Shown: positions 1,131 through 6,758 of the stretch, one piece after another | How positions within the stretch are numbered: the first letter of the stretch is position 1 | Layout: every line of letters starts with the position of its first letter | DNA from: Deltaproteobacteria bacterium | GTDB lineage: Bacteria; Desulfobacterota; Syntrophobacteria; Syntrophobacterales; Syntrophobacteraceae | Length of the DNA: 39,951 bases | Assembly: GCA_021777755.1 (NCBI GenBank) | Contig: JAJYDE010000025.1 | Coordinates: 1 to 39,951 of the forward strand | Direction: 5' to 3' | Made by a program: the position numbers and the translations under genes | Notes under the pieces: model-generated | What the model was told of the DNA's origin: nothing | Databases searched by the model: none | Seen by the model: only the letters and a program-made list of their open reading frames with translations

Positions 1131-2396
1131 TCAGGGTTTCATATTGACCTCGACCCTCAGCCTGAGAGCGTTTCGCTCGATGAGAAGATTTCCGCGGGGG
1201 CCACCGGCGGCGAGCGCACGCCGCAGCTCGTCCACATTTCCTACCGGCTTGCCGTTAACACCGACAATTATGTCCCCCTTGTGAAGGCGGGCGGCAACCG
1301 CCGGGGACCCCGGCAGGAGCTCCGAGATTTCCACCCCGCGCCCCGAGGGCGCCCGCTCCACCAAGACACCCAGGCGAGGGGGGTGATAAGGTGCGGCCGG
1401 GCCGGTTACGACCACGTAATCCGCCAGATTGGGGCCGAGCTTGTCAGCCGGATAATCGACCGGAACGGGCGCCACCGTCGCGAAGGTCGTCCGGGGCCTT
1501 CGAAGCAAAGTGAGATGCGGGACGCCAAAGCGCTTGTTCATATGCCCTCTGCCAAGAAGGACCACAATTTGACACTGCGTTTGGCCCTGGCGCCGGGCCA
1601 GTGTTTGGGCCATCGTTTCCTCCCAGGCCAGTTGGGCCTCGAAAAAGGACTCGAAATCCCTGATCTCATATTTCCCGTGCGATCTGAAAGCCTCTTCGAC
1701 GCGTTGGCGATCGCCCGGATCGTTCAAATGAAACTCCCTGGCCACCTGCGAACGCTCCATTGGCGTTAGCGATTTGAGGCCGTGGCGCGCTATCTTTCCA
1801 ACAATGGAATCGGGCGCGTTTAGACCCACGACCGGCATGCGCCTTTGTTTTTGCCAGTCGATCAGCCCCTTGTAGAGCGAATAGGGATAGCCCCAAACCT
1901 CATCCCATTTAACCTCACGCAGGAAATCGGCCTCCGACATCGGCCCGTCGATATAGCGGTCGAGGATCTGTTGTGCGTTGGCCGCAAACATCTCCATCGC
2001 AAGCTCGACGCATCCGCCGTCGCGGGAGAGCCGCTTAAGAATTTCGAGCTGGACCTCATGGTCTTGAACGCTTGTGTGTATTTCCCCGATGTATACCGTT
2101 TGGACTTTGGAGAGCTTCCGGATCAGCCGATTCATGCCAATCACCCGGCCCGTGGCGGTCTCGATGATCTCCCCCTGGCGCAGGGCGCGGGGCGGACCGG
2201 TCCGCGGGGAGCCGGTCGTAATTGCCGTCTCGCAACATCCGGCCAAAATGAAAAAGAGCGCGCAGGTCGCGCAGACCCTTGCCGCCCTCAAAGTGCCCCG
2301 GCTCGAATAGAGCCGGGCACCGGTTGTTGCCCCTGCCCGATGTGTGAGGTTTTTGTCCTCGATTTCGAGTAGAGCTGCCGAGCGTTTGGCCACCAT
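1131..2396 (-). CDS. ChaN-like (DUF399/Tiki-fold) lipoprotein with C-terminal PDZ domain
   Basis: A 421-residue reading. The central region has the ChaN/DUF399 pattern: YIGEIH, a second His in QDHEVQ, and a late LGRGH. This fold includes haem-binding ChaN and Tiki-type proteins. About 80 C-terminal residues form a PDZ domain (GVEISELLPGSPA, then GDIIVGVNGKPV), usual for peptide binding in the envelope. A lipobox (ILAGC) at about residues 50-54 predicts a lipid anchor. The start is uncertain: ATG at 2396 has GAGG 7 bases upstream but leaves a long N-region, while TTG at 2291 gives a compact 19-residue lipoprotein signal but lies just after a strong hairpin (about 2294-2317). It is divergent from the PilZ gene. 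Haem or iron handling is family inference only. Confidence 0.8.
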   Translation of the reverse strand: MVAKRSAALLEIEDKNLTHRAGATTGARLYSSRGTLRAARVCATCALFFILAGCCETAITTGSPRTGPPRALRQGEIIETATGRVIGMNRLIRKLSKVQTVYIGEIHTSVQDHEVQLEILKRLSRDGGCVELAMEMFAANAQQILDRYIDGPMSEADFLREVKWDEVWGYPYSLYKGLIDWQKQRRMPVVGLNAPDSIVGKIARHGLKSLTPMERSQVAREFHLNDPGDRQRVEEAFRSHGKYEIRDFESFFEAQLAWEETMAQTLARRQGQTQCQIVVLLGRGHMNKRFGVPHLTLLRRPRTTFATVAPVPVDYPADKLGPNLADYVVVTGPAAPYHPPRLGVLVERAPSGRGVEISELLPGSPAVAARLHKGDIIVGVNGKPVGNVDELRRALAAGGPRGNLLIERNALRLRVEVNMKP

Positions 2397-2431
2397 CGCT
2401 TCGCCTCAAGGACTCCCGCAAGAATTCGCTT

Positions 2432-2462
2432 TTGAAATGTTCATTTTCCGGTATACTATAAT
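2432..2462 (+). promoter_or_regulatory. Possible promoter for the PilZ gene
   Basis: A perfect -10 TATAAT (2457-2462) follows a -35-like TTGAAA (2432-2437), but the spacing of 19 is long. If used, transcription starts near 2469, which favours the downstream ATG at 2515 as the translation start. Confidence 0.35.
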
Positions 2463-2514
2463 CATTAACATGATAGAAGCGGATGGAAGAGAATTTTCGT
2501 CGGGAATCCAGATT

Positions 2515-3138
2515 ATGGTCTACAAAAAAATCCCTTTTCAAATTGGTGCGGAAATAATGCTCCGCTCGTCTTCGAACCGTTCCCACAAAGCTAAGAGCAA
2601 GATTATTGGAGTTGTGAATAGAGAACTGATATTGATTGAAAAACCTGTTTTTTCAATCAGCGATAATATCACTGTGATCGTCGACGAAGATTTAATGGTT
2701 GCATATTTGCACGAAGGTTATCTATTCACATTCGATAGCCGCTTTGGAAAAGAGCTTATCAAAAATATTGTTTGCATTGATTACCCTGCCACTTTTCAGG
2801 TGGAGAACCTGAGAGAGGCGCCAAGAATCAAGGTGAATCTGGATGCGGCAGGAAGCGTAAGCGGTTCCCAATTTACGGGAACTATTAAAGATCTTAGTGA
2901 AACCGGATGCTTACTGGAAATCCCCAAGATAGTCTCCTTTTATAAGGGCGTGGAATTTACAGTTACTTTCACCATGCCCAACGATCAATTGGTCAAAAAC
3001 GTCCAATGCAAAATAATGAATATGAAATTTAACCAGATTTACAGGAAAACGGACGTAGGGATTATGTTCCAAGGACCACCCGAAGAGGTCGCCAAAATCA
3101 GGGAACTGATAAAATTTTGCATGCGGTTCAAAGTTTGA
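2515..3138 (+). CDS. PilZ-domain protein (YcgR-like, putative c-di-GMP effector)
   Basis: A 207-residue protein with an N-terminal PilZN/YcgR-N-like domain (about 1-95) and a C-terminal PilZ domain. The c-di-GMP-binding signature is visible: REAPR (RxxxR) followed by DLSETGC (DxSxxG). It is clearly paralogous to the PilZ protein at 31682-32392 along its whole length (NIVCIDYP here, DIVCIEYP there). ATG at 2515 starts where the paralogue similarity starts and has GGGA 9 bases upstream; ATG at 2470 and 2344 are in-frame alternatives. It probably binds c-di-GMP in the cytoplasm and acts on motility, adhesion or a partner protein; the output is unknown. It is apparently monocistronic. Confidence 0.88.
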   Translation: MVYKKIPFQIGAEIMLRSSSNRSHKAKSKIIGVVNRELILIEKPVFSISDNITVIVDEDLMVAYLHEGYLFTFDSRFGKELIKNIVCIDYPATFQVENLREAPRIKVNLDAAGSVSGSQFTGTIKDLSETGCLLEIPKIVSFYKGVEFTVTFTMPNDQLVKNVQCKIMNMKFNQIYRKTDVGIMFQGPPEEVAKIRELIKFCMRFKV

Positions 3139-3234: not shown

Positions 3235-3381
3235 CTATTTTATTTGTTTTTTGCGTTCCTTCGGGCGCTCCGCGCCACAGGAGTCCGCCATTCAGGTGGG
3301 TACGCCAAGCTTGGGCAGTATCCATTTGTTTAAAACGATGTAGAGCACGAAAATACCGAGAATGAGAAGTCCCGTGTGCAT
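3235..3381 (-). CDS. Candidate small membrane selenoprotein (in-frame UGA at codon 30)
   Basis: ATG at 3381 has GGAAAGG just upstream. Codons 1-29 encode a single-TM protein (hydrophobic about 4-17, then LNKWILPKLGVPT). Codon 30 is TGA (3294-3292). Reading continues for 18 sense codons (MADSCGAERPKERKKQIK) to TAG at 3237-3235. Read as selenocysteine, this gives 48 residues with U30 and Cys35 in a UxxxxC arrangement after the membrane segment and a basic tail. A SECIS-like hairpin follows the UGA directly (3289-3264). A plausible promoter lies upstream. The membrane-anchored redox role is inference. The alternative is a 29-residue protein that simply ends at TGA; the hairpin, the nearby Cys and the open frame argue against that. 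Confidence 0.6.
3264..3289 (-). promoter_or_regulatory. bSECIS-like hairpin after in-frame UGA
   Basis: Starting 3 nt after the UGA, a 4-bp lower stem (GGCG/CGCC), a 2-nt GA bulge and a 4-bp upper stem (CUCC/GGAG) close an 8-nt apical loop (UGUGGCGC). G is the second base of the loop, and a GG lies 16-17 nt from the UGA. This fits the general bacterial SECIS description: a hairpin just 3' of the UGA, a short upper stem, and a G at the start of the apical loop. The stems are short, so folding and SelB binding need testing. Confidence 0.5.
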
Positions 3382-3713
3382 CTTGATACCTTTCCAACAG
3401 GTTTTTGCCGGGGCTTTCGCCCCTAAAGAGATCCAGTGGTTGGCCCGCCTTGCAATTCCTTCAATATTACTCTCAATTCGCCATTATTCAAGGTGGAATC
3501 CTCCCGCCCGGATTCGACGGTTCCCCGGGCAAGCCTCGCGTACATCCCCGCAGGGGGGCTTTCAGTTTACTGTGTTTGCCCCCGACGTTTGATGCTAAGA
3601 TATTGCACGGTTTTTTCAGACACTGAAAAAATCTGGACCACAAAGCCAATGGATCTGAAAACGCCTGGCCCGTAATTGCGCGTCGCGGGTGCGGGGCTAG
3701 CCGGAAGTGCGTC
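3382..3713. other. Intergenic region without a recognised gene
   Basis: This 332-base gap holds the leader and promoter of the minus-strand small gene and the upstream region of the 1014-residue protein. A perfect 9-bp inverted repeat with T/A-rich arms (TTTTTTCAG-ACA-CTGAAAAAA) is at 3611-3631. I see no coding potential in it. Confidence 0.5.
3464..3491 (-). promoter_or_regulatory. Possible promoter for the small selenoprotein gene
   Basis: TTGAAT (3491-3486) and TAATAT (3469-3464) are spaced by 16 bases on the minus strand. The predicted start near 3457 leaves a leader of about 75 nt that contains a GGGGC-GAAA-GCCCC hairpin (3424-3411 region). Confidence 0.4.
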
Positions 3714-6700
3714 ATGAAAAGGGGAATCCCCGCAATTTTTTTCGATCGTCGCGACTACGATCTTTTGAACCTGGTAAACGAGGTGCTCGAGGGCCGGGAT
3801 TCCCTGCGGTACTTGAAAGATCTGCTCTATCCCTGGTTTCACCCGCACGGAATAAAGGAACTGGCGGCTTCCCCCGCCCAGCGAATGGCCTACGCGGCCC
3901 TGAGGCTTCTGGAGCCCCAAGGGGCCGCAAAGGCCGGGGAGCGGCTGAGCGCCCTGCGCTCGCTTCGAGACGAAGTGATGAGCAGCGGGGAAGTGCATAT
4001 GCGAAAAAACGCCGCCCGGGTGCTGCTTGAAATCATGAAGGAGTTGGTGCGAAAGCCCGGGGGGAGGCTTAAACAACTCCAACTGGCCCATGATTTTCGA
4101 GCCGCTGTTATCGGCAGGCCGCGAGCGATCCGCTCGCTTCTGCGCCGCCATCATCTTCTGGAAATGCCCGAAGAGTGGAACCAGGTCTCCTTCGACGATC
4201 ATATTCACGATTCGAGCACCAAGGGGCGAAAGTCGCCCTCCCATCTTATAATGGATGCCTGGATCAAGGGAATTCGGCGCCTCACCGTGGTCTACTACAA
4301 TTACGTGCCCGCCCTGGCGGCTGAAGAGCTTTTGGAAGCCGGCGCCATAATGGGCGTTGGGGTGCGCATTGGCATAGGGTTCTCCGTCAGGTTCAACGGG
4401 GCCTACATTCAGCTCCTCTATTCTCCGGCCGGCTTGTCCGATGCGAAGGATTTTCTCTCATTTCTTTCCGACCGGCGCACAATGGCCTTCATGGAGGAGG
4501 CAAAGGCCGTTTCGGCCTACCAGGGCCGCTATGTCCTCGCTGTGCTCGACGAATTCAACCGGCGCCGCCTTGCGGAAATCAACCGAAGATACGGTCTGCA
4601 CCTGGAGAGCTTCGACCGGTCCGCTTTCCTTGCCTATGTCGGCGAGGGGCAGCCCTCCATACTCCATCTTGCAAGGTTCATTCATCTGAAACTATTTCGC
4701 GCCATGCGCGAAAGGGTCGCGCAACTGGTGCCGGTTTTCGGTGCGGCATCGGGCGAGGAGGGCCAAAGGCTGGCCGCTCTGGTTGACGAGATGGACCGGC
4801 TCGATTCGGAAGAAATCGTCGACCGGTATCTTCGGCCTTCCCAAAACCCGGGAATTCCCGACCCCCACGTGCCCGGTGATGGCCCGGATGTCCCGCCTTT
4901 GCTCAGATTGAACGCACCGGAGCTGGCCGAGCGGCTGAGCGATTTGAGCGCGGTGTGCCGAATTACGCTCAACCTTACCGGCTTGAGGGCCGAGGATGTG
5001 CTCGAACTGCTCTACGTGTGCAAGGGGGCCATAAACGATCTGGAGATTTTCAATTTAAAGGATTTTGCAACCGGAAAAGGGCGAAACTATCGTGAAATCA
5101 CCCAACTGCAAAGGGCCATAAACGATCAGGATACGGTCGGTCTGAAAAAGCATATCCTGGCTATGATCGCTCGGATGGAGGAGGCCGGCGGGAGCGGTAC
5201 ACAACGAAGGGCCAGGTTCCATGAGATCCTGCGAAACATCCCGAAGCTTCAGTCCTACTACCGGAAAGGGCCGCTTCGCTCAAAGATCGGAAGTGATTCC
5301 ACCGGCCATTCCCACCGGTTGCACGGAATGGGGCTGGCGATTCTGGAGACGCTTCCCCCAAGGGCCAGGAGGGTGGTGCGGGGCTCGAAAGGGTCGCAGA
5401 GGGTTGTAGTTCCGGTTCGAATGGACGCTTTTTTCCGAAAAACTTACCTGCCGGAGAAAAGGCCGCACCTTTTTCCCCGCCTGCTTTACTCGACGCTGCG
5501 CCGGCTCCCGGGGTTCGGCCTGGTGGGGCGAAAGCGCGAAGAGGGATGGAAGGTGGGCGAACTCTCGACCCGGATCGAGGAGAAGGGCAACGTGGTGACC
5601 CTCGGGGGGATAGGCCGGCCAAGCGACTGCCTGGCCGATATGCTCGAAACTTCCGGGCCGTCTCGAAGCTATATTTCCAGCAACTACCTCAACGAGATGA
5701 TCAAAAATGGTCTGAAGATTGCCGCGGGTTTTGTCCCCGCATTCCTCAGCTTTTACCTGACCAAGAATTGGTGGGTGCTTGCATGGTTGGGCGCACCGAT
5801 CTGGTTTGCCATCACCGGTATTAGAAACATCATCCAGTCGGTCTTCGGGGCGGGAGGCTTTCACCCCTCGGATTTCATCAAATGGGACAGCTACCTGAGT
5901 TGGGGCAGGATCAGCGATTCCCTTTTCTATACCGGCCTGTCCGTCCCCCTGCTCGACTACGTGGTAAAAGCCGTGATTCTCGATCGGGCCCTGGGCATAA
6001 CAACCGCGACCAATCCGGTATTGCTCTATGCTTTTATCTCCCTTGCCAACGGCTTGTATATCTTCAGCCACAATAAGTGGCGCGGGCTTCCCGAAGGCAC
6101 GGCGACGAGCAATCTGCTTTTTCGCACCGTCCTTTCCATCCCCCTGGCCTTTTTGATAAATATGGCCGCCGGTAGCGTGCTGGGTGCTTTCGGGGTTCCA
6201 GACATTCAGGGCATGCTTCAAAAGTGGGCGGCGATAATATCCAAGGCCGCATCGGACACGGTGGCCGGAGTGATCGAGGGGCTCGCGGACCGCAACGAAT
6301 ACATCGAAATAAGAGCCGACGATTATGCGGGCAAACTCAAGCAGTTGTTCGAGGCCTATGCGCAACTGGAGTTGCTCTATCCGGAAGCCGATGTTTTGAA
6401 GATGCTCGAATCTCCGGGAGATTTCATGACCCGGCTTGGCTCCGAGGCTCGCGATCTGGAAAAGATCATCATTGTAAACGCACTCGATCTTCTCTATTTC
6501 TGGATGTACCAGCCAAGAGCGCGCAGTGAATTCCGGATGCTCTTTGACGGGATGTCTGCCGGGGAGCGGGAGATTCTCGTTCGCTCCCAAATGGTTCTCA
6601 AGAGAAAACAGGAAGTCGGCCAACTGCTGCGGGACGGGATTGTCGGGAAAAATTACGAAAAGGCCCTTTCTTTTTATCTGGACTGTTCCGAAGACTACCT

Positions 6701-6758
6701 TAACGTGTTAGAAAAGCGTCAAGTGGTAAATGGCATCCCCGTCCGGACTCGACGATGA
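3714..6758 (+). CDS. Large unrecognised protein with a C-terminal membrane domain
   Basis: A 1014-residue protein I cannot assign to a family. GGAAG precedes ATG 3714 at about 7 bases. Residues 1-660 are soluble, mixed and helix-rich, with no obvious catalytic motif. About 665-828 carry roughly five hydrophobic segments (around 668-686, 690-707, 733-755, 766-784, 800-826). A soluble, charged, helical tail follows (about 840-1014). The stop overlaps the start of the PgpH-like gene (ATGATGA, 6755-6761), so the two are translationally coupled and probably work together at the inner membrane. A sensor or partner role for the phosphodiesterase is inference from this coupling. Confidence 0.85.
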   Translation: MKRGIPAIFFDRRDYDLLNLVNEVLEGRDSLRYLKDLLYPWFHPHGIKELAASPAQRMAYAALRLLEPQGAAKAGERLSALRSLRDEVMSSGEVHMRKNAARVLLEIMKELVRKPGGRLKQLQLAHDFRAAVIGRPRAIRSLLRRHHLLEMPEEWNQVSFDDHIHDSSTKGRKSPSHLIMDAWIKGIRRLTVVYYNYVPALAAEELLEAGAIMGVGVRIGIGFSVRFNGAYIQLLYSPAGLSDAKDFLSFLSDRRTMAFMEEAKAVSAYQGRYVLAVLDEFNRRRLAEINRRYGLHLESFDRSAFLAYVGEGQPSILHLARFIHLKLFRAMRERVAQLVPVFGAASGEEGQRLAALVDEMDRLDSEEIVDRYLRPSQNPGIPDPHVPGDGPDVPPLLRLNAPELAERLSDLSAVCRITLNLTGLRAEDVLELLYVCKGAINDLEIFNLKDFATGKGRNYREITQLQRAINDQDTVGLKKHILAMIARMEEAGGSGTQRRARFHEILRNIPKLQSYYRKGPLRSKIGSDSTGHSHRLHGMGLAILETLPPRARRVVRGSKGSQRVVVPVRMDAFFRKTYLPEKRPHLFPRLLYSTLRRLPGFGLVGRKREEGWKVGELSTRIEEKGNVVTLGGIGRPSDCLADMLETSGPSRSYISSNYLNEMIKNGLKIAAGFVPAFLSFYLTKNWWVLAWLGAPIWFAITGIRNIIQSVFGAGGFHPSDFIKWDSYLSWGRISDSLFYTGLSVPLLDYVVKAVILDRALGITTATNPVLLYAFISLANGLYIFSHNKWRGLPEGTATSNLLFRTVLSIPLAFLINMAAGSVLGAFGVPDIQGMLQKWAAIISKAASDTVAGVIEGLADRNEYIEIRADDYAGKLKQLFEAYAQLELLYPEADVLKMLESPGDFMTRLGSEARDLEKIIIVNALDLLYFWMYQPRARSEFRMLFDGMSAGEREILVRSQMVLKRKQEVGQLLRDGIVGKNYEKALSFYLDCSEDYLNVLEKRQVVNGIPVRTRR

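Follow-up and report, generated by a model that had tools for sequence, protein, structure and literature searches.

Among described bacterial selenoproteins, the closest to the gene reported here are thiol-redox proteins with a UxxC or CxxU motif, which in the inventory of PMC13188914 comprise Trx, Grx, DsbA/G-like, and Prx-like proteins. Shared with them are a UGA-decoded selenocysteine (Sec), a SECIS element downstream, a partner Cys close by, and, at part of the loci, redox-type genomic company. In contrast, the family described below lacks the thioredoxin (Trx) fold and consists of one transmembrane (TM) helix and a tail, with UxxxxC spacing, a length of ∼48 residues, and rare Cys homologs. 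Eukaryotic SELENOK and SELENOS are likewise small and have a single TM helix, past which Sec sits in a flexible tail. The likeness seen to them is one of architecture (size, one TM helix, Sec past the helix); the family has a bacterial SECIS, and its Sec lies close to the helix end rather than near the C terminus. Two Sec forms of the FmdB zinc-ribbon family (COG2331) are listed in Table 4 of PMC2398784. These are a different protein, although FmdB-type genes flank members of the family, and three such neighbors that were checked proved to be ordinary PF09723 proteins. The "FmdB" of PMC4807772 was set aside as irrelevant, since in the part concerned the name denotes formylmethanofuran dehydrogenase. 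The Tso and Sao families of Haft and co-workers, named in Table 1 of PMC13188914, are also genome-defined bacterial selenoproteins with characteristic neighbors, but none is listed there with a UxxxxC motif, and no NCBIfam model matches the protein studied here. That table of the 2026 review inventories 119 prokaryotic selenoprotein families and subfamilies; compared by description, none is presented in it as a UxxxxC single-TM protein. No published description of such a family was found in the literature searched, which comprised papers available without subscription.

The window, i.e., the whole stretch of 39,951 nucleotides from a Deltaproteobacteria bacterium that was analyzed, carries a short gene on its minus strand. 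Its features and the two flanking genes are as follows.

3235-3381, minus strand: complete selenoprotein open reading frame (ORF) of 48 residues, ATG to TAG via UGA codon 30 (ORF reading and homologs)
3381-3379 and 3237-3235, minus strand: ATG start and TAG stop, respectively (ORF reading)
3389-3395, minus strand: Shine-Dalgarno-like GGAAAGG, 7 nt before the ATG (read from the sequence)
3310-3375, minus strand: predicted TM helix, residues 3 to 24 (AlphaFold2 helix)
3292-3294, minus strand: UGA read as selenocysteine 30 (TGA site conserved in the family; five Cys homologs align Cys here)
3253-3288, minus strand: SECIS element with apical stem 3276-3264 and loop GGA (own fold and family analyses)
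3277-3279, minus strand: Cys35, the proposed resolving Cys of UxxxxC (Cys at +5 in most relatives)
3238-3261, minus strand: basic C-terminal tail (translation; at Sec +12 to +15 the family most often has K)
2344-3138: PilZ gene, convergent with the selenoprotein gene
3714-6758, plus strand: 1,014-residue ORF diverging from the selenoprotein gene, with no Pfam-A match at E ≤ 0.001

Translation yields MHTGLLILGIFVLYIVLNKWILPKLGVPTUMADSCGAERPKERKKQIK. Behind a single predicted TM helix at the N terminus, members of the family share the sequence type [NQ][KR]W[IV]LP[KR]xG[VI]xT-U-MSxxC, followed by a short basic tail. An AlphaFold2 model of the window protein, built with 66 relatives in the alignment (A3, retained by a filter from 86 named sequences), showed one helix at residues 3 to 24 and then an unstructured tail (mean pLDDT, 69.7; pTM, 0.40). 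No Trx model was among the Pfam matches. An earlier note, made from the letters alone, had described a 48-residue single-TM protein with a good ribosome binding site, an in-frame UGA at codon 30, a Cys five positions later, and a basic tail, and each of these parts was recovered here. In the family, Shine-Dalgarno-like words precede the chosen start in 113 of 139 genes, a count made without a control and with start codons picked by rule. An ordinary gene caller would stop the protein at 29 residues or skip the gene. Judging by the gene and its relatives, the element is almost certainly a real selenoprotein gene, in which Sec would be inserted at UGA 30.

Whole-genome searches with the read-through protein matched 8 of 10 congeners through the TGA to residues 45 to 48 (E values of 2e-20 to 3e-7); the other two (G006 and G009) gave no match. 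Among 59 relatives, the own genome counted, 52 had a match at E ≤ 1 and 47 at E ≤ 0.001. All 47 of the latter contained TGA, and the weaker matches were partly due to chance, that of G056 having TAA there. Across the phylum, 102 of 297 genomes matched at E ≤ 0.001 (own genome counted) with TGA inside every match, and reading of the fetched loci revealed the TGA always at the same site. A 74-member profile recovered 126 of the 297 genomes at E ≤ 0.01, at least 2 of them by chance. Of the odd rows that were read, G065 and G140 were chance matches, G262 looked degenerate, and G321, G260, G056, and G082 had the TGA just past the matched stretch. The underlying alignment (A2) held 74 of 80 diverse sequences, with L136, L140, L144, L168, L172, and L175 left out and L058 excluded earlier. 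Loci identical around the UGA were merged into one, and 139 distinct phylum sequences were kept after removal of L057 (a chance match with TAA); L289 (not a member) was also dropped. In all 139 of them the Sec site was TGA, never TAA or TAG. P at position −7 and G at −4 were each present in 138 of these sequences, and T at −1 and W at −16 in 125 each. Cys was located at +5 in 118, at +6 in 12, and at neither position in 9. In A2, P23, G26, and U30 were invariant, and W14 and C35 reached at least 90%. Most commonly 29 residues precede Sec (77/139), and 11 to 36 follow it. Conservation beyond the UGA, which the earlier note had proposed as a check, was thus seen in congeners, phylum loci, and profile matches; relatives match through the TGA instead of all ending at GVPT. 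A UGA kept in frame at a single site, with homologous sequence before and after it, is one mark of a bacterial selenoprotein.

Seven congeners differed before the UGA by 143 nonsynonymous versus 156 synonymous codon differences and after it by 101 versus 57 (54, 62, and 118 differences at codon positions 1, 2, and 3, respectively). The excess of nonsynonymous differences indicates that the part after the UGA is loosely constrained and evolves faster than the head. Only up to about Sec +10 is it well constrained, and part of this conservation, at Sec +6 to +10, may reflect constraint on the RNA, because the SECIS stem overlies the codons of the Cys and later residues.

A further mark, Sec machinery in the host, had been named as a check as well; two of its components, SelB above the cutoff (360.7 bits) and tRNA-Sec (selC; 74.0 bits), were found in the window's own genome. 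SelB exceeded the cutoff in 263 of 297 phylum genomes. With 119 of 126 family-positive versus 144 of 171 family-negative genomes, its presence separates the two groups only mildly. The seven family-positive genomes without it (G063, G066, G092, G113, G139, G159, and G219) contain tRNA-Sec at 74.3 to 79.2 bits, and six of them show partial matches to the SelB profile below the cutoff, many probably to other GTPases. The tRNA-Sec in all seven and the partial matches in six suggest that SelB was probably lost to assembly. Under stricter filters, tRNA-Sec was detected in 23 of 26 Sec-form, 0 of 4 Cys-form, and 12 of 20 family-negative genomes. In another survey, it was present in 24 of 27 Sec-form genomes, and these, like the 26, come from other phyla. 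Overall, one of five Cys-form genomes, the fifth, has one. Control genomes gave a tRNA-Sec signal in 3 of 14 cases (E. coli, Thermus composti, and M. jannaschii). Sec-form genomes without tRNA-Sec (3/26 and 3/27) are assumed to be incomplete or misbinned assemblies.

The hairpin after the UGA of the window gene folds with −16.9 kcal/mol and consists of a 5-bp apical stem (3276-3264, loop GGA) within an outer bulged stem. Since its z score is −1.46, a stability equaled or exceeded by 15 of 200 shuffles, the window sequence alone does no more than suggest a SECIS. The earlier note had seen a SECIS-like hairpin immediately behind the UGA; such a hairpin is present and is supported by the family, but its placement had to be corrected to the apical stem at 3276-3264 with the outer stem reaching to ∼3253. 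In the family, the fold after the UGA had a mean z of −1.39 (138 sequences) versus −0.12 for 408 control windows from the same loci. The best-stem score averaged 6.19 versus 3.28 ± 0.10 for the shuffled stretch (118 sequences), and a G was among the first two loop positions in 114 of the 118 hairpins. Several registers occur (innermost pairs 26-30 in 46, 24-28 in 25, and 19-24 in 10 of 118), which indicates that the structure is kept although its position moves. Within register-based groups the innermost pairs are partly paired by construction, and the whole 118-sequence alignment served as the unselected test. There, 58.5% of cells were paired versus 28 to 39% with the partner slid by 1 to 3 columns. 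Cells changed on both sides numbered 152 versus 79.8 in shuffles, and the covariation score was 0.312 versus 0.184, values reached by 0 of 500 shuffles in either case. Among the same 118 sequences, neither pairs with change on both sides (8 versus 7.6 shuffled) nor further pair types (27 versus 26.5) were in excess. Outside Desulfobacterota, 48 Sec loci, picked by hand by record title (L341 is titled Deltaproteobacteria and L350 just "bacterium"), had a mean stem of 6.08 versus 3.54 shuffled and a G in the loop in 47. The SECIS in the family is far beyond chance: the hairpin stands just after the UGA, has a G in the apical loop, and shows compensatory changes, as is typical of bacterial selenoprotein genes.

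The reach of the family was assessed with a DNA pattern permitting TGA, TGC, or TGT, which was derived from Sec members and is matched by 92 of the 139 known members. In the genome collection it hit at least 117 genome contigs, and 116 of the matches listed were members. Among these, 115 have TGA and 1 has TGC (a record titled Verrucomicrobiota), a proportion in which Cys forms may be undersampled by a pattern made from Sec members. By record title, the members listed span at least 11 phyla. The titles include Deltaproteobacteria/Thermodesulfobacteriota, Acidobacteria, Planctomycetota (including a Kuenenia MAG), KSB1, KSB3, Spirochaetes, Armatimonadota, Eisenbacteria, Zixiibacteriota, Sumerlaeota, one Actinomycetota (Solincola), and one "Cyanobacteria" MAG, and doubtful bins among the listed records include L327 and L274. 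Geobacter sp. OR-1, Desulfocicer vacuolatum, and Thermodesulfatator autotrophicus are among the hits that carry a species or strain name. L327, titled Margulisbacteria, is probably a misbinned contig, as its neighbors group with those around the Desulfobacteraceae locus L326 and no tRNA-Sec was detected in its genome. Two IMG/VR contigs filed as viral (L238 and L239) hold TGA members and may be host DNA or proviruses; plasmid and phage records searched with the window protein gave no match. Profile surveys found the family in 57 of 247 Acidobacteriota genomes (1 with Cys and 56 with TGA, located within the match or directly behind it; 16 of the 56 were read) and in 23 of 246 Planctomycetota genomes (3 with Cys and 20 with TGA, of which 10 were read). 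In Verrucomicrobiota, 6 of 145 genomes matched at E ≤ 0.01, and the Cys form alone is credible among them.

Homologs with Cys at position 30, another check proposed earlier, were thus obtained: five align Cys at the UGA site, with CxxxxC replacing UxxxxC. Their best stems scored 4.5, 2.1, 3.5, 2.0, and 2.5, versus 2.9 to 3.7 for shuffles, and four of the five lay below their own shuffled mean (only L389 was above). The Cys forms are therefore without the SECIS hairpin, their stems being at or near chance level. This is the classical pattern of Sec/Cys homolog pairs in selenoprotein families, here with Cys rare.

Gene neighborhoods were compared at 243 distinct loci, within 1.5 kb of the gene (669 kb) versus 3 to 7 kb away (797 kb). 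FmdB-type zinc ribbons were encoded at 57 loci within 1.5 kb versus 2 at 3 to 7 kb, Trx-fold genes at 30 versus 1, CcdA at 12 versus 1, and ArsR at 18 versus 2. At least one of the four lay within 2 kb at 93 of 243 loci and at least two at 19, while 150 had none. These four families were chosen after the neighbors had been inspected, using shorter ORFs and profiles; since the choice was post hoc and many loci are related, the enrichment overstates the independent evidence. The 14 named FmdB loci nevertheless represent six phyla by record title, which argues for repeated association, and FmdB shares the strand of the selenoprotein gene in 56 of 57 loci. L103, L108, L133, and L158 have all or most of the arrangement ArsR, selenoprotein, FmdB, Trx, and CcdA, and a Pfam scan of example neighbors returned PF09723 (3 proteins), PF00085 (2), PF02683 (1), and PF01022 (2). 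An operon partner common to all members was sought in the first neighbor clustering, which found none; the commonest neighbor there was a convergent gene, D-Ala-D-Ala-carboxypeptidase-like as named from its sequence (27/139). At the window's own locus, partners of the FmdB, Trx, CcdA, and ArsR types are absent, the flanks being only the convergent PilZ gene and the diverging ORF. At eight loci (L123, L141, L246, L252, L281, L294, L305, and L340), a sigma factor-like ORF (RpoE type by sequence) lies immediately downstream on the same strand and overlaps the tail of the selenoprotein gene as called.

If the UGA were a true stop, the product would be a membrane peptide of 29 residues with GVPT at its end, and the tail would be accidental. 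The low significance of the window hairpin alone (z of −1.46) and the quick drift of the tail within the genus fit this reading. Strong evidence against it comes from the Sec site, which is TGA and never TAA or TAG throughout the 139 distinct members retained, from the +5 Cys of 118 of them, and from the hairpin, for which three of five measures show covariation. In addition, the five Cys forms, which have Cys where the others have the UGA, continue through CxxxxC, and most hosts possess tRNA-Sec. We give it practically no weight. It is also highly improbable that the element is a leader or sensor in which UGA and SECIS tie Sec supply to expression of the following gene, with a functionless peptide. 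Sec-dependent readthrough would suit a sensor, and FmdB follows on the same strand in 18 loci; however, FmdB is more often upstream (38 loci), and there is no consistent following gene: the next one has the opposite orientation in 125 loci and shares the strand in 106. Moreover, protein residues and the Cys are conserved, and the Cys forms keep the peptide without a SECIS. A chance ORF was rejected, and tRNA-Sec, SelB, and SECIS make a reading by another genetic code unnecessary.

Taking the gene as a selenoprotein gene, we considered where its active residues would lie. The mean net charge is −0.35 before the helix and +3.35 for the stretch that starts 12 residues ahead of Sec and runs to the C terminus, and the tail is more positive than the N-terminal side in 125 of 139 members. 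By the positive-inside rule, the positively charged flank of a TM helix faces the cytoplasm, which together with the charged tail suggests a cytoplasmic C terminus. We infer that the N terminus is outside and that Sec and Cys are cytoplasmic at the membrane surface. There, Sec30 would attack an oxidized partner, a lipid-phase oxidant, or a disulfide or sulfane sulfur substrate, Cys35 would resolve the Sec30 intermediate as a selenenylsulfide, and cytoplasmic thioredoxin would reduce the latter and reset the protein. CcdA passes thioredoxin reductant across the membrane, and in some lineages the selenoprotein may exchange electrons with it; in some, a neighboring ArsR-type repressor may regulate the selenoprotein. 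As a whole, a selenoprotein of an uncatalogued family that acts as a membrane-anchored selenol/thiol UxxxxC relay served by thioredoxin is the explanation we favor, with reservation. For the Trx-linked relay role itself, our belief and doubt are evenly matched. The redox role proposed earlier draws on partner genes that adjoin other family members; the window's own neighbors contribute none, and for this protein the role is only presumed.

Two other functions of a real selenoprotein compete with this relay. The protein might serve a membrane electron-transfer complex as a small accessory subunit. Such subunits have a similar size and a single TM, the helix end with its conserved W and [NQ][KR]W could act as a docking face, and most loci are without a Trx-type neighbor. 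Set against this, no membrane-complex gene except a CcdA-like one was recognized among the 40 commonest neighbor clusters (14 sequences seen), and Trx, CcdA, FmdB, and ArsR are enriched nearby, so we regard a subunit role as doubtful, though worth keeping in mind. Alternatively, it might handle metal(loid)s or sulfane sulfur together with FmdB and ArsR rather than reduce an oxidant. ArsR proteins commonly sense metals or reactive sulfur, and of the 243 loci, 18 have ArsR nearby and 57 have FmdB; but members of the ArsR family also sense redox state, and most members of the selenoprotein family conserve just U and one Cys. This function appears rather improbable to us.

The family is absent from the protein-family catalogs searched and set apart from the reviewed families by description. 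The window protein had no match in NCBIfam 20.0 (June 2026) and none above the cutoff in Pfam-A (2025), where DUF5337 reached 11.7 bits (cutoff, 27). At E ≤ 1, the 74 members gave weak matches to NCBIfam (best E value, 0.0053) and to Pfam (best E value, 0.0052, for PF04602, weakly matched by 22 of 74). According to the passages of PMC12013277 on candidate selection, deep-Sep accepts candidates that have a known Sec homolog or whose top hits include Cys homologs, and Cys homologs seem to exist for every known selenoprotein. A family like the present one can slip through such a search. It may have stayed unseen since its proteins have ∼40 to 66 residues, would be annotated as ending at their own UGA, and rarely have the Cys homologs that usual searches use. 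Sec:Cys ratios were 115:1 among the matches listed (with the Sec-biased pattern) and 56:1 and 20:3 in the profile surveys, and homology-filtered searches are biased against such a family. This suggests that bacterial selenoproteomes are undercounted for microproteins. The family also offers a case in which Cys forms coincide with SECIS loss and, for the most part, tRNA-Sec loss, and it points to a concrete candidate redox cassette in cultured relatives. What the earlier note had described as one protein is real but is actually a widespread family across many phyla. That it ranks among the most widespread bacterial selenoprotein families, with near-obligate Sec, and forms part of a previously undescribed membrane redox or metal(loid)/sulfur stress module with thioredoxin, CcdA, FmdB, and ArsR is a view that we hold and question in equal measure.

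Some members depart from the common type. The related L136, L147, and L153 have two in-frame UGAs, the first in ...LPSUGAPVD..., then a basic insert and [IV]PTUDGxSCSIG; the Sec motif is thus duplicated, and these proteins have about 66 to 70 residues. L042, L044, and L050 end in ...GLGCUQ, where adjacent Cys-Sec replaces UxxxxC and no Cys follows just downstream. In L216 to L218, L220, and L221, the Sec region is shifted (GIRGUG, GIHLGUG, GIHGUQ, and GVPVUG), and L220 and L221 have Cys residues far downstream (SSRCCR and NCACS). Second, weak profile matches occur alongside a family member in G198, G108, G143, and G171. In G071, a second, diverged copy in the same genome (L219) was read, with a TM helix and VVPRLKPPTSFGCPTUATKK; copies of this type are probably paralogous Sec microproteins.
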